Positions 8,144 to 39,134 of a stretch of 42,354 nt of DNA are shown piece after piece (position 1 is the first letter of the stretch; every line of letters starts with the position of its first letter). The translations under genes and the position numbers were made by a program. Origin of the DNA: a virus; the IMG/VR virus record IMGVR_UViG_3300045996_000529, positions 1 to 42,354 of that record. One strand, written 5' to 3'. The notes beneath the pieces were generated by a model. The model worked only from the letters and a program-made list of their open reading frames with translations, was not told where the DNA came from and did not search any database.

Positions 8144-9109
8144 ATGGCTACTCCATCGGCTGTGTTCACGGAAATGGTGTCCACCACGTTGCGCCACACC
8201 GCAACCGAAGTCACCGACAACGTGAGCAACCACAACGCCCTTCTGCGCAAGCTGAAGGCCAAGGGCAAGATCAAGACCGTTGGCGGCGGTTACGAGCTTC
8301 AGTTCCCGCTCGAATATGGCGAGAACAGCACGTACCAGCGCTACGCGGGCTACGACACGCTCAACACCAACGCCTCTGACGTTGTGACCTCGGCCAAGTA
8401 TGATTGGGCACAGGTCGCGCTTCACGTCACGGCGTCCGGTCGCGAGCTGCGCCAGAACAGCTCCAAAGAGGCGATGATCAATCTGGTCAAGACCCGCAAG
8501 AGCAACGCCCTCAAGACCGCTGCCAACAACTTCTCCATCGACCTCTATTCGTCCGGCGCACTGACCAACCAGATCGGTGGCCTGTCGCACATTCTCCAGA
8601 CGAACGGGCAGGGCATTGTTGGCGGTATCGACTCCGGCACCTGGACCTTCTGGCAGAACGCCGTGAAGGAAATGACCGGCACCAACACCTGGTCCACTTC
8701 GACCATTCAGGGCGAGTTCAACACGCTCTGGCTGAACGTGGTTCGTGGCGCCGACAAGCCCGACCTGATCGTTGCCTCCCATGACGTGTATTCCACGTTC
8801 GAGGCTTCGCTTCAGCAGAACCAGCGCTACGCTCGCGCCGGGACTGGCGAGCTTGGCTTTGAGGCCGTCATGTACAAGGGCTGTGAAGTCATCTTCGATG
8901 ACAACACCAACTTCACCACCACTGCCGAGCGCGCCTACTTCCTCAACACGGACTACCTCTATCTGGTCCAGCACAAGGAAGCGCAGTGGACCCCCGACGA
9001 CGAGAAGAAGCCGATCAACCAGGATGCGGTCGTTGTGCCGATGTACTGGATGGGCGCCCTCGTCTGCACCAATCGCTCGGTTCAGGGCCTCCTGATCGAC
9101 GCTGCCTAA
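8144..9109 (+). CDS. major capsid protein (HK97-fold, Gp7-like)
   Basis: A 321-residue protein with the hallmarks of the GP7-like major capsid family: a long N-terminal helix (EMVSTTLRHTATEVTDNVSN), the strand PLEYGENSTYQRYAGYDTL, and the late segment GFEAVMYKGCEVIFDDN that forms the P-domain edge and A-domain start. It forms the icosahedral shell. It follows the scaffold after four bases and is followed by a likely decoration protein and a strong terminator, so head genes can reach high transcript levels. No N-terminal protease-cleaved delta domain is evident, which agrees with a separate scaffold. Confidence 0.88.
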   Translation: MATPSAVFTEMVSTTLRHTATEVTDNVSNHNALLRKLKAKGKIKTVGGGYELQFPLEYGENSTYQRYAGYDTLNTNASDVVTSAKYDWAQVALHVTASGRELRQNSSKEAMINLVKTRKSNALKTAANNFSIDLYSSGALTNQIGGLSHILQTNGQGIVGGIDSGTWTFWQNAVKEMTGTNTWSTSTIQGEFNTLWLNVVRGADKPDLIVASHDVYSTFEASLQQNQRYARAGTGELGFEAVMYKGCEVIFDDNTNFTTTAERAYFLNTDYLYLVQHKEAQWTPDDEKKPINQDAVVVPMYWMGALVCTNRSVQGLLIDAA

Positions 9110-9121
9110 GGAGCAACGAAA

Positions 9122-9634
9122 ATGGGCTACGCAATTGGCATGAAGTTCGATGAGTGGACTTCTGCGGCCGAAAATACCGCTGGTGGCAAGGGCTTCGGCC
9201 TTGGCGACCGCGTGACTACGCATGACGGCAAGGTCTATGTCTACGTCAAGCTCGGCACGGGTGGCGTAACCGGCGACGGTTATGTCTGCTCGTTCGGCAA
9301 TGACTACCTCGCCCTCATGACCGACACCGACACCGCCGGTTCCATTCTCGAAGGGGATTGGATCGGCGTTTCGGAAGGCGCTGGTGCTGTTGACGAGTTC
9401 GGCTGGCTCCAGATTTACGGCGGCTGCGGCATCATGTCTGAAGCCTCTGCCCTCGCCAACAAGAAGCTGGGGCCGACCGGCGATGCTGGACAGGTTGATG
9501 ACGCTGCCGCCGTTGGCATCTTCATCAACGGGATGCACTTCGGCACTGCCACAGGTGGCGCCGATGCGGTCAACACCACCGGCTTCCTGAACTTCCCGAC
9601 GCTGGAAGTCCAGATGGAGCCGGAGACGGCCTAA
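9122..9634 (+). CDS. probable head decoration protein
   Basis: A 170-residue glycine-, alanine- and aspartate-rich protein with alternating strands (GKVYVYVKLG; GDWIGVSEGAG; FGWLQIYGGCGI), which suggests an all-beta fold. It comes 12 bases after the capsid gene with the ribosome site AAGGAG, so it should be made in similar amounts. Proteins with such composition behind the capsid gene are usually decoration or stabilising proteins. It ends just before a strong terminator at 9652. I do not recognise a named family. Confidence 0.65.
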   Translation: MGYAIGMKFDEWTSAAENTAGGKGFGLGDRVTTHDGKVYVYVKLGTGGVTGDGYVCSFGNDYLALMTDTDTAGSILEGDWIGVSEGAGAVDEFGWLQIYGGCGIMSEASALANKKLGPTGDAGQVDDAAAVGIFINGMHFGTATGGADAVNTTGFLNFPTLEVQMEPETA

Positions 9635-23340: not shown

Positions 23341-23415
23341 CTGGGCGTGGCGCAGTGGTAGCGTGCCGCACTCGGAATGCGGAAGTCGCGGGTTCGATCC
23401 CCGCCGCCCAGACCA
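23341..23415 (+). tRNA. tRNA-Pro(CGG)
   Basis: Acceptor CTGGGCG pairs with CGCCCAG, with discriminator A and an encoded CCA. Anticodon stem CCGCA/TGCGG with loop CTCGGAA gives anticodon CGG, which reads CCG. T-arm GCGGG-TTCGATC-CCCGC is perfect. The D-arm is short. Confidence 0.92.
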
Positions 23416-23455
23416 ACCTCCAACACCAACGAAATTGGTGACGCACTAAGCCCGT

Positions 23456-23529
23456 ATCGGCTTGGTGTAATGGTAGCGCGTCGGCCTCCAAACCCGAAAG
23501 CCTGAGTTCGATTCTCAGAGCCGGTGCCA
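23456..23529 (+). tRNA. tRNA-Trp(CCA)
   Basis: Acceptor ATCGGCT pairs with AGCCGGT (one U-G), discriminator G, encoded CCA. Anticodon loop CTCCAAA gives CCA, tryptophan. The anticodon stem TCGGC/CCCGA has a C-C mismatch next to the loop. T-arm CTGAG-TTCGATT-CTCAG is perfect. It is interesting because the phage attP is itself a tRNA-Trp fragment, with a different sequence. Confidence 0.85.
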
Positions 23530-23545
23530 ATCCCACAGCAATCAC

Positions 23546-23623
23546 TTCCGGCAGGCGAGCAAGGTGCACGCGGCGACCTGTTAAGTCGATTTTAGGCTGG
23601 TTCGATTCCAGCGCCGGGAACCA
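23546..23623 (+). tRNA. tRNA-Asn(GTT)
   Basis: Acceptor TTCCGGC pairs with GCCGGGA (one U-G), discriminator A, encoded CCA. Anticodon loop CTGTTAA gives GTT; the stem GCGAC/GTCGA has a mismatch in its outer pair. T-arm GCTGG-TTCGATT-CCAGC is perfect. D-arm and variable region are a little long (78 nt). Confidence 0.85.
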
Positions 23624-23624
23624 C

Positions 23625-23698
23625 TCTCCATTCGTTCAATGGTAGGACGCCGCGCTCTGAACGCGGTAATCGCGGTTCGAATCCCCGATGGAGAACCA
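23625..23698 (+). tRNA. tRNA-Gln(CTG)
   Basis: Acceptor TCTCCAT pairs with ATGGAGA, discriminator A, encoded CCA. Anticodon stem CCGCG/CGCGG with loop CTCTGAA gives CTG. The T stem CGCGG/CCCCG has one mismatch. It begins one base after the CCA of tRNA-Asn. Confidence 0.88.
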
Positions 23699-23699
23699 T

Positions 23700-23773
23700 T
23701 CCCTCTTCGTCTAGCGGTAGGACCGCGCACTTTGACTGCGCAGAGCGTGGTTCGAATCCACGAGAGGGAACCA
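23700..23773 (+). tRNA. tRNA-Gln(TTG)
   Basis: Acceptor TCCCTCT pairs with AGAGGGA, discriminator A, encoded CCA. Anticodon stem GCGCA/TGCGC with loop CTTTGAC gives TTG. T-arm CGTGG-TTCGAAT-CCACG is perfect. With the previous gene, both glutamine codons are covered by the phage. Confidence 0.9.
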
Positions 23774-25944: not shown

Positions 25945-27015
25945 TCACTTCGCGTTCCCCATCTGCACCACATTGCCGCGCGACTCGCGCAGGGTTTCTT
26001 GGATCACGTCGCCCATTTTCCGCAACAATTCGCGACGGTCGGCGCTCATCCCGTAGAGCCCGGAAACCGACTTCGGCCCATGCCCGAGCAGATGACGGGT
26101 TTGCGTCTCGTCAAAGCCCGCTGCCTCTAGGATCGTCGCTGGCGTGTGACGCAGGCCGTGGAACGTCACGCCCTCGTCAATGCGCCCGGCCTTCACCAGA
26201 GCGTCTCTGTGGCGCTGGAAAGCCGTCTTGAGCCCTTCGTAGGTCCAAGGCTTCCCATCATCCTTGACGCAGATGGTGGTGCTATCGTTTTTCGGGATGC
26301 CGTCGAGTATCCAGCGCAGGTCTTCACAGACAGGCAGAACGACGATCTTGCGCGTCTTCCCTTGCACGACTTCCATAAACGCGCCCTTGTCCGCCGACTT
26401 GGACAGTATCGCCACGTCGCCAAGCCGCAGGCCGGTATAGATCGCCACGGCGATTGCGGGCTTCAGGTGCGCCGGAGCTGTGTCTATCAGCGTGTTGGCC
26501 TCAGTGGGAGAGCAGGGGCGGTTGCCGCGCTTGTTCCCGCCCGTCGCCTTGCTGATGCCGTCAGCTGCGTTGGTTTTGACGAAGCCGTACTCCTTGCCAT
26601 AGGCCAGCACCATCTTGAGGCTGGTCACTACCTGGTTGGCGAATTTCGGCTCGTGCTGATCTCGCGCACGATCCCGCACCTTGGCAACAGCCGGGGCGGT
26701 GATCGTCACAAGCGCCGCGTCAACTTCCTTCCCCAACCATGCGAAAACCCGCTCATAATCTTTGCGCGTTCGGTCACGTAATGCTCGCCAATGGTTTGAT
26801 TTTGCCTTATATTCGGCAATCAGCATTCGGAGCGTTCCGGCCTTTGCCTTCTGGGGCAAGTGGAGCGCATCGAGGCGGGCGACTTCGGCGGCCAACGCGG
26901 CGCCGGATAGTTTCAGGTCGATGGCAACCGATGGCGCGCCCTTGCGTCGATAGTACCGGCGCAGCGTTCCATGCCGGTCCCGGTATTCCTTAATGCCCAC
27001 GACCCGAACCCGCAT
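25945..27015 (-). CDS. int: tyrosine recombinase integrase
   Basis: A 356-residue phage integrase; ATG at 27015 is preceded by GGGGAGATGGAAG. Residues 1-50 are the arm-binding part (EYRDRHGTLRRYYRRKG), 60-155 the SAM-like core-binding domain, and 165-330 the catalytic domain. Catalytic residues are visible: R197 in YTGLRLGD, a lysine at 220-223 (GKTRK), H286 and R289 in HGLRH, H312 in LLGHG and the nucleophile Y321 in SGLYGMS. It should recombine the attP at 25816-25860 with a host tRNA-Trp gene. The Xis-like gene overlaps its start by 26 bases. Confidence 0.93.
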   Translation of the reverse strand: MRVRVVGIKEYRDRHGTLRRYYRRKGAPSVAIDLKLSGAALAAEVARLDALHLPQKAKAGTLRMLIAEYKAKSNHWRALRDRTRKDYERVFAWLGKEVDAALVTITAPAVAKVRDRARDQHEPKFANQVVTSLKMVLAYGKEYGFVKTNAADGISKATGGNKRGNRPCSPTEANTLIDTAPAHLKPAIAVAIYTGLRLGDVAILSKSADKGAFMEVVQGKTRKIVVLPVCEDLRWILDGIPKNDSTTICVKDDGKPWTYEGLKTAFQRHRDALVKAGRIDEGVTFHGLRHTPATILEAAGFDETQTRHLLGHGPKSVSGLYGMSADRRELLRKMGDVIQETLRESRGNVVQMGNAK

Positions 27016-27220
27016 CTTCCATCTCCCCGAACCCTCTGACGGGAACGGATTGACGGAGCGTATCGAGGTAGGCGTCAAGCGCCTCTTTGTCGTAGCGCAC
27101 ATTAGAACCGAAGTTGACAGGCGGAACGGCGACGTAGGATTTGAAGCCGTTCACTGATTTGAAGCCGCAATATTCCGCCGCTTCGTCCGCCGTGAGCATG
27201 CGTTTCGCCGGGGCTACCAT
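26990..27220 (-). CDS. small HTH protein, excisionase-like
   Basis: A 76-residue protein (ATG at 27220; a TTG at 27247 is also in frame). MLTADEAAEYCGFKSVNGFK, then YVAVPPVNFGSNVRYDKEAL fits the HTH_17/winged MerR-like fold of phage excisionases and small DNA-binding proteins. It overlaps the start of the integrase gene, so the two are made together. It probably directs integrase toward excision by bending attachment-site DNA, as known for Xis proteins; this is an inference from fold and position. Confidence 0.68.
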   Translation of the reverse strand: MVAPAKRMLTADEAAEYCGFKSVNGFKSYVAVPPVNFGSNVRYDKEALDAYLDTLRQSVPVRGFGEMEDAGSGRGH

Positions 27221-29150: not shown

Positions 29151-29326
29151 GGCTGGTTCTCCTTCGCCCATTCGCCAAGCCAGTAGGCATAGTCCTCTGT
29201 GGTCGGATCACTCTCCAAATCGTCTTGGCGGCTCCAAAATTCGGATGCCAAGGCGCGGCGCTCGTCATAGGTCTGCTGCAACAGCAGCGCTGCAATCTTC
29301 TGGTTGGTCGTCGGTTCGTCGCTCAT
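29147..29326 (-). CDS. hypothetical acidic protein
   Basis: A 59-residue acidic helical protein (ALLLQQTYDERRALASEFWS; YAYWLGEWAKENQP). ATG at 29326 follows AGAGGGAGA. It overlaps both neighbours. Not recognised. Confidence 0.6.
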   Translation of the reverse strand: MSDEPTTNQKIAALLLQQTYDERRALASEFWSRQDDLESDPTTEDYAYWLGEWAKENQP

Positions 29327-29808
29327 GTGGTCTCCCTCTTTCGTGATTGAAGTTTCCGGCCTTGCGGCCATACGGGTTTGGACTGCAGTTTCCGGTCGGG
29401 ATTGTGTGGAACGCGGGCGCGCTGCTCACGCGGCTTCCGAGGCTTGACCTGGCGCTCGCTGGACAGGCACTCGGGGTCGAGCGGGACGATGATGATCTGC
29501 CGCCGTGCCCGATTGACCATGGTCAGCACAACGCCGCGCAGCAGGTGCCAGTAGAACTCTGCATCGCTCATCAGCGGCTTGGTGCCGTGCCCTACGTCAA
29601 TGTAGGCGTGGCACGTGAAACAGGCGTCTAGGACGGCGATGTCGTGCGCCTTCATCCCCATGCCCTTGCCGAAGGCCGCGCCGTTCATGTGCGCCGGCAC
29701 GGTGGTCGCTTCATCAGCGCAGCACGTGGGGCCGCAGAAGGAGCAGGGCTGGTCCCTAGAGCCGTTGAGGTACTTCTGCGACCGGATAGGCTCTTCGCGC
29801 AGGTTCAT
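29323..29808 (-). CDS. DUF1364 / YbcO-like nuclease
   Basis: A 161-residue protein matching DUF1364 (YbcO of E. coli prophage DLP12, whose structure is nuclease-like). Visible signature: PCSFCGPTCC, TVPAHMNGAAFGKGMGMKAH, then DAC-FTCH-AYID, with the histidine of PAH, the K-A-H-D and the CxxCH likely binding metal. A basic tail of about 50 residues (REQRARVPHNPDRKLQSK) follows and may hold DNA. Encoded next to NinB, SSB-tail and Bet genes, it probably belongs to the recombination module and could supply the missing nuclease. Confidence 0.72.
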   Translation of the reverse strand: MNLREEPIRSQKYLNGSRDQPCSFCGPTCCADEATTVPAHMNGAAFGKGMGMKAHDIAVLDACFTCHAYIDVGHGTKPLMSDAEFYWHLLRGVVLTMVNRARRQIIIVPLDPECLSSERQVKPRKPREQRARVPHNPDRKLQSKPVWPQGRKLQSRKRETT

Positions 29809-30002
29809 GCGGCCCTCTCATATTTCGACAGGCGCCAGCCGGTGAACGGGGCAGGGCAAGCAGTTACCCAGATGCCGTCCGTCTCGTCCCACCAGACATC
29901 CTTGACCCAGCCGCAGTAGGGGCTCCACAGGTCGATAATCGTCCCATCTTTGGGCGCGTAGGTCATGAGCTTTGCCGACTTCGGCGCGGGCTTCTGGGTC
30001 AT
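29805..30002 (-). CDS. DUF551-like small protein
   Basis: A 65-residue protein with MTYAPKDGTIIDLW followed by three tryptophan-rich strands (GWVKDVWWDETDGIWVT; TGWRLSKY). This is the W-P-I-x-x-A-P-K-D-G pattern of small DUF551-like proteins, of which this genome has four. It overlaps both neighbours. Confidence 0.62.
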   Translation of the reverse strand: MTQKPAPKSAKLMTYAPKDGTIIDLWSPYCGWVKDVWWDETDGIWVTACPAPFTGWRLSKYERAA

Positions 30003-30406
30003 GCCGCGCTCCGTTCGTCATAACCAGCATCCGTCCACTCGACGCCGTGCTGGTCGCCATAGGCCTGAATGCAGGTGATAAGATCGCCCATCTGTCGCAC
30101 CGTGAGATGCGAGGAACGGAAGCCCAGCGGGAACGGCCCGGAGTTATCCAGCCCCTCGCAGAATTGAACCTGGTGCCCGAGGAAATGCATGAAGGCTGCT
30201 TTCCACGTCTCAGGCGTCCACTGGCGGCCTTCCGGCTTCGCGCGGGCAACGTCTCCGATCATGGCCCAGAGCTTCGCGTTCTGGTCGGTCGTGCGTTTCT
30301 TGGGGGCTATGGTCACAACGTAGTCGTCAGGGGCCTCAGCGACCGCCCTAGAGGCATTGGCGCGCACTCTGTCGTTGACGAGGCGGAATGATTGCTTGTC
30401 GGTCAT
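29999..30406 (-). CDS. ninB: NinB-like recombination protein
   Basis: A 135-residue protein matching the NinB (Orf) family: KKRTTDQNAKLWAMIGDVAR, then WKAAFMHFLGHQ, SSHLTVRQMGDLITCIQAYG and HGVEW. In lambda, Orf/NinB binds single-stranded DNA and helps load recombinase in place of RecFOR. It overlaps both neighbours and sits four genes from Bet, as in lambda-type recombination modules. Confidence in the family is high; activity is inferred from it. Confidence 0.85.
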   Translation of the reverse strand: MTDKQSFRLVNDRVRANASRAVAEAPDDYVVTIAPKKRTTDQNAKLWAMIGDVARAKPEGRQWTPETWKAAFMHFLGHQVQFCEGLDNSGPFPLGFRSSHLTVRQMGDLITCIQAYGDQHGVEWTDAGYDERSAA

Positions 30407-30609
30407 CCCGCCCTCGCACCAGTGAGCCGCCCAAGCCGCTTCTGATAGGCCGCCAGCAAGAACCGGCGCTGCCTGCTGCCATCCTCGAAAGGGTCGGCAT
30501 GTTCCCACCAGAGCCGGATAAGCTCTGAGGGAGTTTCGGCCTTGGCGAACTGGTCAGCGATGCGCTCTACAGCGAGGCTGTCCATGAGGTTGTCGAGAAG
30601 CGTGGGCAT
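30403..30609 (-). CDS. hypothetical helical protein
   Basis: A 68-residue protein with helices LLDNLMDSLAVERIADQFAK and ELIRLWWEHADPF, ending basic. Coupled to NinB by an ATGA overlap. Not recognised. A 57-base gap without features precedes it. Confidence 0.62.
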   Translation of the reverse strand: MPTLLDNLMDSLAVERIADQFAKAETPSELIRLWWEHADPFEDGSRQRRFLLAAYQKRLGRLTGARAG

Positions 30610-30666
30610 CGAATTATCGGCGGGCGCTTATTAGGCGGCCCGCCGCCCTGACGTTGGGAACTGGGG

Positions 30667-31008
30667 TCAAAAGGGGATGTCGTCGTCCATGCCGCCGCTG
30701 TCGAAGGCTGGCGACTGCGCGGCAGGGCGGCGAGTGGAATTGTCCTTTGCTGCCCCATAGCCGCCCGCTGAGCCCGATTGCTGTCGCGCGGGCGGGGCAT
30801 CGCCATCCTGCTTCGGCGGCATCATCAGAATGCGGGTTTCGAGCTTGCCTTCTCGGTTCATCGAGGGCAGGGGCAGCGCGTCGAATGTGAGGCTGTAGCC
30901 GTCACGTTCTTTCATCGGCCAAGCTGTGCCGATCTTGGTGAAGAACGTCCGTTCCTCGCCATCCTTTTCGTAGGGACGGGCGACAAGTAGGTCCATGCGT
31001 TCGCTCAT
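30667..31008 (-). CDS. single-strand DNA-binding-like protein with SSB-type tail
   Basis: A 113-residue protein. The first 60 residues form a compact beta domain (MDLLVARPYEKDGEERTFF; GYSLTFDALPLP; LETRILMMPP). A glycine- and glutamine-rich linker follows, and the last residues are MDDDIPF, the acidic tip by which SSB proteins recruit repair and replication enzymes. The beta domain is shorter than a normal OB fold (about 110 residues), so I call it SSB-like. Its stop and start overlap with Bet on one side (ATGA), which supports a partner role in annealing. Confidence 0.7.
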   Translation of the reverse strand: MSERMDLLVARPYEKDGEERTFFTKIGTAWPMKERDGYSLTFDALPLPSMNREGKLETRILMMPPKQDGDAPPARQQSGSAGGYGAAKDNSTRRPAAQSPAFDSGGMDDDIPF

Positions 31009-31817
31009 TCTGGCGCTCCTACGCGGTTGAGGTGGCGCTGCTTCATCTTCAGCGCGATTTCCATGTTCACTTCGTCGCCCTCAAGCGTCCCTTCCGGGTC
31101 GTTCAAGTCCCACGCCTCATCAATCGTGTCGGCGGAGTTGGCGACGGCGAGGTCTTCCTCCAGCTGCTCGAAATAGGCGACCGGATCGAACGGATCGGGC
31201 TCGCTAGGTGGCGGTGGCGGGGGAGGGGCCGCCGCGATCTGAACGGGCGGCGGGGGCGGCGCAATCGTCTCGGTGATGACCTCCGGCGACCGTTCGGCCT
31301 CTTCCGGGTCGATGATGCCAGCGAAGCCGAAGGCGTACCTGGCGCACTGGATCAGCGCCTTGTGCCGCAACATGCGCGCCGGCCACTTCTGCCACGGCTC
31401 CGTCTGGCGCCTGCACTCCGCCATGTACTCGGTGACCATCGTCGGGTGCTTCCGGTCCTTGCGGTGGATGCGCGCCGTGATGGCGGTGATTTCACCCTTG
31501 TCGTCCATCTGGTCGTGAAACTCGATGCCGTCGCAGGACGGATGCGAGTTGATAAGGTTCGACCATCCATCGATGCCGACGATTGGCTGGATGCCGCCGC
31601 CCTTCTTGGGGAAGGCGTAAATCTCCTTGGTGATCGGGTCCAAGCCGTAGCGGTGGGCGACCATCAGGAAGGCGGCGAACTCCTCATCGGAGACGTTGCC
31701 CGGCATGCAGGTTGCCTTCACGGTCTTGGCGAAAATCGCCGGTTCCATGTTGCGCTCTGAGGCCATGTTGGCGATCAAAGACTGGCGCTGCGGTTCGATT
31801 TTTGCTATGTTGCTCAT
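31005..31817 (-). CDS. bet: Redbeta-type single-strand annealing protein (Bet)
   Basis: A 270-residue protein very close to lambda Bet over residues 20-185: SDEEFAAFLMVAHRYGLDPI, KEIYAFPKKGGGIQPIVGID, TARIHRKDRKHPTMVTEYM and RMLRHKALIQCARYAFGFAG are near-matches to the lambda protein. After it comes a proline linker (PPPPPVQIAAAPPPPPPP) and an acidic C-terminal domain of about 60 residues. Bet anneals complementary strands and works with an exonuclease. No YqaJ or lambda-type exonuclease is found beside it. ATG at 31817 follows GAGGAGG. Confidence 0.93.
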   Translation of the reverse strand: MSNIAKIEPQRQSLIANMASERNMEPAIFAKTVKATCMPGNVSDEEFAAFLMVAHRYGLDPITKEIYAFPKKGGGIQPIVGIDGWSNLINSHPSCDGIEFHDQMDDKGEITAITARIHRKDRKHPTMVTEYMAECRRQTEPWQKWPARMLRHKALIQCARYAFGFAGIIDPEEAERSPEVITETIAPPPPPVQIAAAPPPPPPPSEPDPFDPVAYFEQLEEDLAVANSADTIDEAWDLNDPEGTLEGDEVNMEIALKMKQRHLNRVGAPE

Positions 31818-32122
31818 GCTGCTTCGGCCTCCTCGGGCCATGCCTTGTGCTCGTGCCAATAGGCGTAAGTTTCGTAGGGGATCGGGGTTTTCGCGCAGTA
31901 CGGCCAAAGCCAATCGGGCGGCACCGGCTCACCGGCTCTCTCTGCCCGCAGGTTGCCCGCCGCATCGCGCCAGATGGCACATGCGATCTTCGGCCACTTC
32001 GCAGCCTTCACCGTGCTCTTGCGGTCCTGCGTGGCGAAGTACCCGCACCAAGGTTCGCCCTCGTGCATCGGCACCTTTTCCCCAGCCAGGGCGCGCCGCC
32101 ACTGATCGAAATGGTCAGTCAT
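31814..32122 (-). CDS. hypothetical protein upstream of Bet
   Basis: A 102-residue protein rich in W and P in its last third (PPDWLWPYCAKTPIPYETYA; WHEHKAWP). It contains MHEGEPWCGYFATQDRK. Such proteins occur in early operons of alphaproteobacterial phages. It overlaps Bet (ATGA). Function unknown. Confidence 0.65.
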   Translation of the reverse strand: MTDHFDQWRRALAGEKVPMHEGEPWCGYFATQDRKSTVKAAKWPKIACAIWRDAAGNLRAERAGEPVPPDWLWPYCAKTPIPYETYAYWHEHKAWPEEAEAA

Positions 32123-32176
32123 GGGTTGTCTCCATCCGAACCGGAGAGACTTCCTGCCTCAATGGTGCATGGTGGT

Positions 32177-32482
32177 TCATGATTGGACGGGCTCTGCGCG
32201 GAAGAAGGCGAGGATCGCGTTGCCGTGGTGCAGTGTGGCGGCCACGTCGCCATGCTCAGCGTTGAACGCCTCCGCTTCCCTCAGCGCCTCTTCCAAAGCC
32301 TCTAAACGAGCTATCATTGAGAGGATGGAAGTGGGGTTGGCGAGGGCGATGAAACGGGCGTCAGGTTCGTGGTAGCTGGTCCCCGCGACATAGTGGTCGG
32401 TCCAGACTTCATCGTCGTGCTGCACATGCCACGGCCCCGGCGTAGCTAGTTCCGCAGATGCTTTGAGTGCTGCAATGTCCAT
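32177..32482 (-). CDS. Ead/Ea22-like protein
   Basis: A 101-residue protein with the Ea22-like pattern: ALKASAELATPGPWHVQHDD, then DARFIALANPTSILSMIARL and a coiled-coil tail (EALEEALREAEAFNAEHG). In lambdoid phages these genes lie in the b2/early accessory region with no known role. Starts at ATG 32482 with GAGG upstream, in a TGATG overlap. Confidence 0.75.
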   Translation of the reverse strand: MDIAALKASAELATPGPWHVQHDDEVWTDHYVAGTSYHEPDARFIALANPTSILSMIARLEALEEALREAEAFNAEHGDVAATLHHGNAILAFFRAEPVQS

Positions 32483-32736
32483 CACTTGGCCTCCTCAAGA
32501 GCAGGAGGGGCGGGCAGCGGCATCCAGTGTGTCGGAATGTCAGCATCCCAGCCGTTCGGCTTGACCTGAGAGGCGTTCAGCTTTTCCCAGAACAGCCACG
32601 GATAGTCTCCGTCGCCGACCTCGTCTGGGCACCATGCGCCGGGGTGAACTTCAGGCCCGCGCCGTCCGGTAACTCGGCACAGCAGCACGACCGTCCCATC
32701 CTTTGGCGCTGTTTCAATCGGTTGCCATTCGGTCAC
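32482..32736 (-). CDS. DUF551-family protein
   Basis: An 84-residue protein and the clearest DUF551 copy here: EWQPIETAPKDGTVVLLCRV at the start and THWMPLPAPP at the end. It starts with GTG in a GTGA overlap. The family is widespread in phages; function unknown. Confidence 0.75.
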   Translation of the reverse strand: MTEWQPIETAPKDGTVVLLCRVTGRRGPEVHPGAWCPDEVGDGDYPWLFWEKLNASQVKPNGWDADIPTHWMPLPAPPALEEAK

Positions 32737-32909
32737 TTGTTCTGCTCCTCTATGACTATCGCCGCTGCTGGCTGGACTGCTTGTGCAATACGAAACAGCT
32801 TGTCGCGGTTAGCTGCTGTCACTTCGCGCAGGGCGGCCTCTCGGTAGCGGCGGAGGAAGGGTGCAAGCGCTTCGTCTCGGTACATGTCGTCCAAGCTGAG
32901 AGTGGTCAT
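32733..32909 (-). CDS. small helical protein
   Basis: A 58-residue protein (MTTLSLDDMYRDEALAPFLR, then a long helix to the end). The ATG at 32909 overlaps the upstream stop (ATGA), and its TGA overlaps the GTG of the next gene. Not recognised; overlaps make it real. Confidence 0.62.
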   Translation of the reverse strand: MTTLSLDDMYRDEALAPFLRRYREAALREVTAANRDKLFRIAQAVQPAAAIVIEEQNK

Positions 32910-33130
32910 TCGGGCGCGTCCTCTTCGTCCATGCCGATAGCTTCCACGTGCTGCGCCGCTACGATGCGGTCACTGGTTACGACGCAGGTGAAGGTTCCGC
33001 CGTTGGTGAGCGTGTCGAGCAAAGCGTCTGTGAGCAGGGCCCGCATGCGCCCCCTGCGAGTGGACCCGCCGGAATATTCCCCGTTGGTCGCCGCATCTTT
33101 GTCGATGTCGATCTGAAGGACCGCGCTCAT
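32906..33130 (-). CDS. hypothetical small acidic protein
   Basis: A 74-residue protein beginning with a strand (MSAVLQIDIDKD), a basic patch (GGSTRRGRMRALLTDALLDT) and ending acidic (GMDEEDAPE). The size and charge pattern suggest a small regulator or host-interaction protein. Not recognised. Confidence 0.6.
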   Translation of the reverse strand: MSAVLQIDIDKDAATNGEYSGGSTRRGRMRALLTDALLDTLTNGGTFTCVVTSDRIVAAQHVEAIGMDEEDAPE

Positions 33131-38225: not shown

Positions 38226-38728
38226 GCGAGTGGCGGACAAGCCCGAGCTTCCCGGACTATGAAGTGTCTGAGGACGGGCGCGTTAGGCGGCGGTCGCAAT
38301 CGCGCACACGGTCGGCTGGCAGCATGCTCAAGGGCAAGCTGGCCTATGGCTACTGGCGATACGCCCTGCGCCATGAGGGGCGGCCCTACAATCGGGGCGC
38401 GCACATGCTTGTGTGTGAGGCTTGGCACGGGCCAAGACCTTCCCCTGATCACATTCCCGCGCATTGGGATGGGGATCGGCTCAACAACCACTTCGCAAAC
38501 CTCCGGTGGGCAACAGAGACCGAGAATGCGGCCGATAGGGAGCGACACGGGGCCACGGCTCGCGGGGAGCGGCATGGCCGAGCAGTGCTTACTGCTTCGG
38601 TTGTCCGGCTAATCCGCGAGAGGTGCGCTGCCGGTGTAAGCCGAAAGCAAATTGCCGAAGCTGCCGGAGTGTCGAGAGCGGCAGTCTATGGAGTGCTTTC
38701 CGGGAGGACGTGGTCCCATGTCCAGTGA
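38222..38728 (+). CDS. HNH endonuclease (NUMOD4-type) with C-terminal HTH
   Basis: A 168-residue protein starting in an ATGA overlap. Residues 1-40 (EWRTSPSFPDYEVSEDGRVR) are a NUMOD4 domain. The HNH core follows: AHMLVCEAWHGPRPSPDHIP, then AHWDGDRLNNHFANLRWATE. The last 50 residues (VRLIRERCAAGVSRKQIAEA; AGVSRAAVYGVLSG) form a helix-turn-helix. This is a free-standing homing endonuclease architecture. It sits between the methyltransferase and RusA and probably arrived as a mobile gene. Confidence 0.82.
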   Translation: MSEWRTSPSFPDYEVSEDGRVRRRSQSRTRSAGSMLKGKLAYGYWRYALRHEGRPYNRGAHMLVCEAWHGPRPSPDHIPAHWDGDRLNNHFANLRWATETENAADRERHGATARGERHGRAVLTASVVRLIRERCAAGVSRKQIAEAAGVSRAAVYGVLSGRTWSHVQ

Positions 38729-39134
38729 AGCCGCATTCCAGGCTGCTGTCGAAGCCGGGCTCTTCGCCGGATTGGCTATGCCGCCGCGCGTCGTGACCCT
38801 CGATTGGCCTGCGAAGCCGCTGAGCCCGAATGCGCGCGTGCATTGGTCTGTCAAGGCGAAGGCGGTGAGCTACGCGCGGTCGCTGGCCTATTGGACCACC
38901 CGAGAGGTTGTCGGGCCTCCGCGCAAGGGCTGGACCGGGGCGAAACTGGCTATCACCTTTTGCCCGCCAGATCGCCGCCGTCGCGATGACGACAATGCCA
39001 TCGGAGCATTCAAAGCCTATCGCGATGGAATAGCCGACGCGCTCGGTGTGGACGACCACAAATTCCAATGCAGCTACGCGTTTTCCGAACCCGTCAAAGG
39101 CGGAGCCGTGCGCGTCGAGATACGCCCTATCTAG
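38718..39134 (+). CDS. rusA: RusA-family Holliday junction resolvase
   Basis: A 138-residue protein starting at 38718 inside the end of the HNH gene. Visible: PAKPLSPNARVHWSVKAKAV, TFCPPDRRRRDDDNAIGAFK and AYRDGIADALGVDDHKFQ. The aspartates of the DDDN and the later DGIADALGVDD bind metal in RusA. It cleaves Holliday junctions left by recombination or replication before packaging. It belongs with Bet, NinB and the SSB-like protein, although these lie in the other operon. Confidence 0.88.
   Translation: MSSEAAFQAAVEAGLFAGLAMPPRVVTLDWPAKPLSPNARVHWSVKAKAVSYARSLAYWTTREVVGPPRKGWTGAKLAITFCPPDRRRRDDDNAIGAFKAYRDGIADALGVDDHKFQCSYAFSEPVKGGAVRVEIRPI

Follow-up and report, generated by a model that had tools for sequence, protein, structure and literature searches.

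The window, by which we mean the whole 42,354-base virus record analyzed here, encodes a Bet-type annealing protein followed by a 113-residue partner with the C-terminal tip of a single-stranded DNA-binding protein (SSB). We read this locus as a Bet - exonuclease - SSB operon that lacks the exonuclease and has a protein of the phrog_18187 family in the SSB slot, and assign this reading a probability of slightly less than 0.6. Judged from the sequence, the partner is best regarded as a non-canonical SSB substitute coupled to the annealing protein, which would use single-stranded DNA (ssDNA) supplied by replication or by host enzymes.

Bet and its operon

The early genes of the window run leftward from approximately 34.9 kb to the integrase gene and beyond (Table 1). 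Overlaps of 4 nt join Bet to both of its neighbors, and the ATGA shared by the Bet stop and the partner start likely mediates translational coupling. Nearly all genes from Bet through the YbcO-like gene are linked in the same manner; NinB probably starts at the ATG at approximately 30406, which would give it a 4-nt overlap with the 68-residue ORF. The original prediction of a close lambda Bet homolog overlapping a 113-residue protein that ends in MDDDIPF was borne out, positions included, as was that of NinB and, for the predicted DUF1364 nuclease, a YbcO-like HNH protein encoded behind them: NinB scored 82.1 bits against PF05772 (Pfam cut-off 23.8), and the YbcO-like protein, with 23.7 bits against PF07102 (under the cut-off of 29.9), matched the HNH endonucleases of PHROG 131 at 71 bits. 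A DNA similarity search with positions 30000-33000 found no match in phages. Five tRNA genes (Pro, Trp, Asn, Gln, Gln) are clustered at positions 23341-23773 of the window.

Table 1. Features of the annealing-protein locus and other early genes of the window
Feature	Position	Strand	Remarks
Integrase	25945-27102		Within the leftward early genes
YbcO-like (DUF1364) HNH endonuclease	29323-29808	-	PF07102 below cut-off, PHROG 131
65-aa ORF			Between NinB and the YbcO-like HNH gene
NinB/Orf recombination mediator	29999-30508	-	PF05772 match
68-aa ORF	30403-30609	-	Between partner and NinB
Partner, 113 aa	30667-31008	-	phrog_18187 family; beta-rich core (~1-70), disordered linker, SSB-type tip
MDDDIPF, C-terminal tip of the partner	30670-30690	-	
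ATGA, 4-nt overlap	31005-31008	-	Bet stop/partner start
Bet/Redbeta-type single-strand annealing protein, 270 aa	31005-31817	-	ATG at 31817, stop at 31005
102-aa gene ahead of Bet	31814-32122	-	Corresponds to just the N-terminal domain of the ~320-aa gene of relatives
RusA-like resolvase ORF	38652-39134	+	Identified by eye; one RusA-like member, not specified further, appears in the pooled scan

Bet exceeded the cut-offs of Pfam RecT (101.1 bits against 24) and NCBIfam bet_lambda (87.4 against 76.95) and matched PHROG 252 with 236 bits. Its sequence matched the Redbeta structure 7ujl with an E-value of 7.7e-15, and its model was aligned to this structure with Z 12.8, rmsd 3.8, and 52% identity over 149 residues. 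The core (approximately residues 12-176) is followed by a proline-rich linker (approximately 186-213) and an acidic C-terminal domain (CTD, approximately 214-270); the C-terminus is proline-rich and acidic, with a net charge of -14 over the last 66 residues, and the model places three helices in the CTD with low confidence. The linker and the acidic domain, which had been predicted as extra to Bet, are present but replace the Redbeta CTD rather than extend the protein (261 residues in Redbeta vs. 270 here). By sequence the window CTD is unrelated to that of Redbeta (z 0.3) and related to that of phage Ssp-JY39 (z 15.3).

The Redbeta CTD is described as a three-helix bundle resembling lambda Orf, which binds lambda exonuclease and SSB and needs K253 for SSB binding (PMC8303780). 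Redbeta K214 and K253 align to P and L of the window Bet, in a region where the alignment is unreliable. Since the window CTD is strongly acidic and has neither lysine at the aligned places, it would receive an acidic tip poorly, which weakens the idea of a docking of the annealase CTD on the tip of the partner. The proline-rich acidic tail proved an imperfect marker of exonuclease-less Bets: it occurs in five of eight Bets without an exonuclease vs. one of nine with it, a trend only among these 17 related sequences, with exceptions in L007, L009, L010, and L011 (L-numbers denote the loci compared; L098, with a tail identical to that of L097, and the truncated L012 were left out). In two viral records, an ORF resembling acyl carrier protein by eye (DSLD-type motif) lies directly behind a distant Bet (L010:10921-11205 and L011:10955-11248).

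The 68-residue ORF shares 32% identity with the ORF at the same place in L002 and bears a faint likeness to annealase CTDs. Its role as a stand-alone annealase CTD was considered and rejected, the z-score being only 5.3 against the CTD of L016, and 3.7 for the L002 counterpart.

The partner family and the SSB slot

In Pseudomonas phage PS-1, Bet and YqaJ are followed by a 98-residue hypothetical protein with the C-terminus DDFSDDVPF, which the partner HMM recognizes (E 1.8e-14); Pseudomonas phage PAShipCat1 has the same Bet-YqaJ-partner order (E 7.3e-16). Both phages are also Bet matches, hence not independent of Bet. The sister phages LC3I3, Tr60_Ab31, and Pmp13 encode Bet, YqaJ, and a true SSB, the latter exactly at the position of the PS-1 partner, which argues that the partner fills the SSB slot. 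Moreover, five of the 20 records found with the PS-1 protein (Pseudomonas members) annotate the gene as a single-stranded DNA-binding protein.

The partner belongs to no Pfam family, and its sole PHROG match was phrog_18187 (E 4.9e-10), the profile of which matches all 19 family members scanned. Two NCBIfam SSB models gave 12.9 and 12.8 bits against cut-offs of 254 and 241, in the C-terminal half only, and hhalign of the partner profile against true SSBs aligned only 13 tail columns (91.8%), with no detectable SSB relationship of the core. In the model, based on a nine-row alignment, residues 1-70 form a confident all-beta core of four strands, and residues 73-108 have low pLDDT, consistent with a flexible linker before the acidic tip. 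Foldseek and VIA-align searches with this model listed no match above Z 3.4 and no OB protein among the matches recognized, and PDB profile searches with the partner yielded nothing credible. That the partner is simply the phage SSB, i.e., a true, highly diverged ssDNA-binding protein with an OB-like core, is a real possibility, if a somewhat unlikely one: the position in the SSB slot, the SSB-like arrangement of core, flexible linker, and acidic tip, the well-modeled all-beta core, and last residues nearly identical to the SSB tail in L003 all point this way, but the sequence searches matched no OB protein, none was recognized among the fold matches listed, and the model contains four strands only.

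Searches that took the partner and not Bet as the query yielded 27 further distinct loci (L002, L013-L016, L018-L020, L067, L071, L072, L074, L076, L078, L080-L083, L086-L094), giving 28 together with the window. Near-duplicates (L073 of L072, L077 of L076, L068 of L074) were left out, as were L003 and L004, SSBs whose resemblance to the partner is limited to the tail or a short segment; a wider group of lower-scoring genome matches, with 57 more genomes in one search and 11 in another, was not counted. With the window partner, tblastn found no match in phages and one weak match in plasmids, and a scan of genome contigs found one locus.

An annealing protein is encoded directly upstream of the partner in 17 of the 28 loci: ERF in five (L018, L019, L020, L067, L076), Rad52 in six (L014, L081, L088, L090-L092), a protein of the phrog_7838 class in five (L002, L013, L016, L080, L086), and Bet in the window alone. 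YqaJ is the direct upstream neighbor in five loci (L071, L078, L082, L083, L087); ERF precedes it in four of these according to the HMM, with an extra gene between in L071, and by eye in L078, where an HMM built from Pfam-confirmed ERFs did not confirm the annealase as ERF. Other upstream neighbors occur in five loci, namely L015, L072, L074 (Toprim/DnaB helicase-primase), L089, and L094, the last with an HNH-like ORF preceded by YqaJ; in L093 the upstream region is cut by the contig edge. The predicted pairing of Bet with the partner is thus real but not peculiar to Bet, as the partner also stands behind ERF, Rad52, phrog_7838, and YqaJ.

Searches with the PS-1 protein and two others produced homologs in named phages, of which ten regions were opened beyond PS-1. 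YqaJ is directly upstream in five of these 11 loci (PS-1, P7869, PAShipCat1, P19250A, ZP9) and an annealase in three (ERF in FBPa19, Rad52 in Mvi-Yong1342-1 and EBPR podovirus 2); MPK9 has an annealase of the phrog_7838 class two genes upstream, Bordetella PBb002 a helicase, and Cobetia Carin1 another gene. Two observations concern loci of the wider survey. In alphaproteobacterial genomes (L033, L040, L043, L050, L056, L058), remote relatives of the partner core that lack the tail are encoded behind a large protein that resembles TraG/VirD4 by eye. Directly before the annealase, L013 encodes a PolB-like 3'-5' exonuclease (8623-9303; PF10108, 62 bits), and similar PolB-like ORFs were seen by eye in L014 (8662-9339) and L016 (4560-5330).

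The tip is exact or near-exact in 24 of the 28 homologs, a conservation beyond chance that supports its original identification as SSB-type. Sixteen homologs end in [IVL]P[FY], including L078 (...DDDTGIPF), which an automatic pattern had labeled as "none"; in eight (L013, L016, L072, L074, L080, L086, L089, L093) the motif is followed by 3-5 residues (APE[FW]R, SPQVD, or NGG), and in four it is altered or lost (L020, NEPF; L071, EIQF; L076; L081). SSB-binding pockets prefer a free C-terminus, and the terminal Phe usually must be free. The pentapeptide APE[FW]R after the tip is conserved among L013, L016, L074, L089, and L093. Among the 11 named-phage homologs, ZP9 and Carin1 have no motif, PAShipCat1 ends in DDDIHF, and the motif of Mvi-Yong1342-1 is internal.

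Search for an exonuclease

The six-frame search of the whole window record found no YqaJ, and no exonuclease family occurred among those listed for the 46 early-region ORFs (25 of 72 PHROGs families and 25 of 27 Pfam families) or for the 32 hypothetical ORFs (25 of 26 families). Integrase, HNH, RusA-like resolvase, T5orf172, methyltransferase, NinB, and replication families were among the matches listed in these ORF scans; for the late half (1-23.8 kb), coverage was by the YqaJ profile only. The neighbors of Bet being the partner and the 102-residue gene, no exonuclease gene lies beside bet. The original prediction was of no exonuclease near Bet; absence from the window is well supported, although not completely. 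In eight of the nine named Bet phages opened (L096-L103), YqaJ directly follows Bet; this does not hold for Synechococcus phage Ssp-JY39 (L095), which gave one of the two best matches to the window Bet. YqaJ is also absent from seven of the eight Bet relatives L005-L012, some of the records being short or truncated, and among 17 records searched it was present in two, that of L009 and, for the L016 genome, a different contig.

An exonuclease hidden in an unrecognized small gene, or encoded in phage DNA that the record does not include, is distinctly unlikely. No family is assigned to many early ORFs, the record may be fragmentary, and the pooled scans list 25 families each, but the six-frame YqaJ search was negative and the families listed included no exonuclease. 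A further candidate was the gene ahead of Bet, which occupies the position of gam in lambda: in the close relatives L005, L006, L008, and L095 it is approximately 320 residues long and carries a C-terminal domain (phrog_10477) labeled "exonuclease" in PHROGs. The window gene is homologous to the N-terminal domain only, the phrog_10477 domain being missing, and Pfam recognizes no nuclease family in the relatives' copy; the label itself (L067:7957-8688) is not supported by this evidence. The DUF1364 protein, originally proposed as a source of single strands, is unlikely to be one, as it occupies the ninB-ybcO position and resembles an HNH endonuclease rather than an exonuclease.

Host enzymes such as RecJ, RecQ, and ExoI dock on SSB tips. 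Recruitment of these SSB-binding nucleases and helicases by the partner tip, in replacement of the missing exonuclease, would agree with the finding of no exonuclease in the window; we consider it very improbable, because the partner is kept beside YqaJ in the loci listed above (5/28, and 5/11 in named phages), where no replacement is needed. Its occurrence in operons that do have an exonuclease means that the partner is not an exonuclease substitute. Least probable of all is a decaying, no longer functional module that has lost its exonuclease and the larger part of the gene at the gam position: the gene ahead of Bet is indeed reduced to its N-terminal domain and the exonuclease is absent, but the remaining genes are all open and mostly joined by 4-nt overlaps, the tip and core are conserved, and the annealase-partner pair with no exonuclease between recurs in 16 other loci.

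Domain exchange, proposed role, and related systems

Annealase cores are exchangeable before a kept CTD, with which the partner often, but not always, stays. L013 (phrog_7838 class) and L014 (Rad52) have dissimilar cores, with a z-score of 1.4, and a CTD z-score of 34; for L086 (phrog_7838) and L019 (ERF) these values are -0.15 and 31. Partner similarity reaches 0.95 of the maximum in the first pair and, despite the common CTD, 0.16 in the second. In Mantel tests, partner similarity correlated with that of the CTD at r 0.54 vs. 0.44 for the core, and at 0.36 vs. 0.12 in the 101 different-family pairs, which is modest. The idea that CTD type tracks the exonuclease was rejected: the five exonuclease-positive ERF loci have a CTD type of their own, with links up to z 13.5 (weaker for L087), but are mutually related. 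The PHROGs label "exonuclease" of phrog_7838 (L002:9213-9998) was likewise rejected, on evidence that is suggestive and not proof: hhalign of the profile gave 63.8% for Rad52 and 0.7% for YqaJ, and the top five PDB matches were RAD52 (E 0.27-0.66).

We propose that the partner would sit on or near the phage ssDNA and help Bet to reach it, while its tip could recruit proteins that bind SSB, the likeliest being NinB/Orf, encoded just downstream, and host proteins. Single strands would come from replication gaps or host enzymes and not from a phage exonuclease. Redalpha is reported to be dispensable for DNA that is single-stranded from the outset (PMC3945230). Stimulation of an annealase by the tail of a phage SSB is described for Sak4 of HK620 (PMC5928155), and ERF and Rad52 annealases commonly neighbor ssb, which adjoins approximately 80% of the erf genes of Firmicutes phages (PMC8093625). 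Against the SSB-substitute reading we count the undetectable relation of the core to SSBs, the tips that are not C-terminal (8/28) or are altered or lost (4/28), the acidic Bet CTD, and the fact that partner and annealase CTD are not always found together (L019/L086).

A broader proposal, tentative and in its entirety rather doubtful, is that phrog_18187 represents a new class of phage SSB substitutes, with a non-OB beta core and an SSB docking tip, that fits the operons of four or more types of annealing protein and, with interchangeable annealase CTDs and NinB/Orf, would form an exonuclease-independent recombination machine acting on replication gaps. Our search of the open-access literature by PHROG number, accession, and SSAP/SSB/exonuclease themes found no paper on this family, which seems to be a regular but overlooked component of phage recombination systems; labeled as function unknown in PHROG, it now gains a testable function. 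Recombineering is driven by annealing proteins, and contacts with SSB probably govern how well these perform in a given host. Kept while the annealase swaps, with or without an exonuclease, the partner is a candidate for the missing part in recombineering outside E. coli.

Several known systems resemble the window locus. As in lambda Red (gam-bet-exo), an upstream gene precedes bet, the product of which has a core 51-52% identical to the Redbeta structure; unlike lambda Red, the window has an SSB-tailed partner instead of exo, and the Bet CTD is unrelated. The Bet-YqaJ-SSB operons of Pseudomonas LC3I3 and Tr60_Ab31 and of Pasteurella phage Pmp13 also contain Bet and an SSB-slot gene in equal order, but include YqaJ, which the window lacks, and a recognizable SSB in place of the phrog_18187 protein. 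PS-1 and PAShipCat1 share Bet and a homologous partner and differ in having the exonuclease. In prophage DLP12, ybcN pairs with ybcO. The succession of NinB/Orf and a YbcO-like HNH protein in the window is the same as that of ybcN (orf) and ybcO there (for YbcN, see PMC4118853), but in the window the two share one operon with bet. The erf-ssb, rad52-ssb, duf1071-ssb, and sak4-ssb modules of Firmicutes phages and HK620, as described in PMC8093625 and PMC5928155, similarly combine an annealing protein with an SSB-tailed protein and are often exonuclease-free; the SSBs reported there belong mostly to recognizable families, whereas the core of the window partner is unrelated in sequence. The combination of an annealase with an SSB-like partner is thus of a known kind, and what is new, as far as our searches show, is an unrecognized SSB-slot family common to four kinds of annealase.
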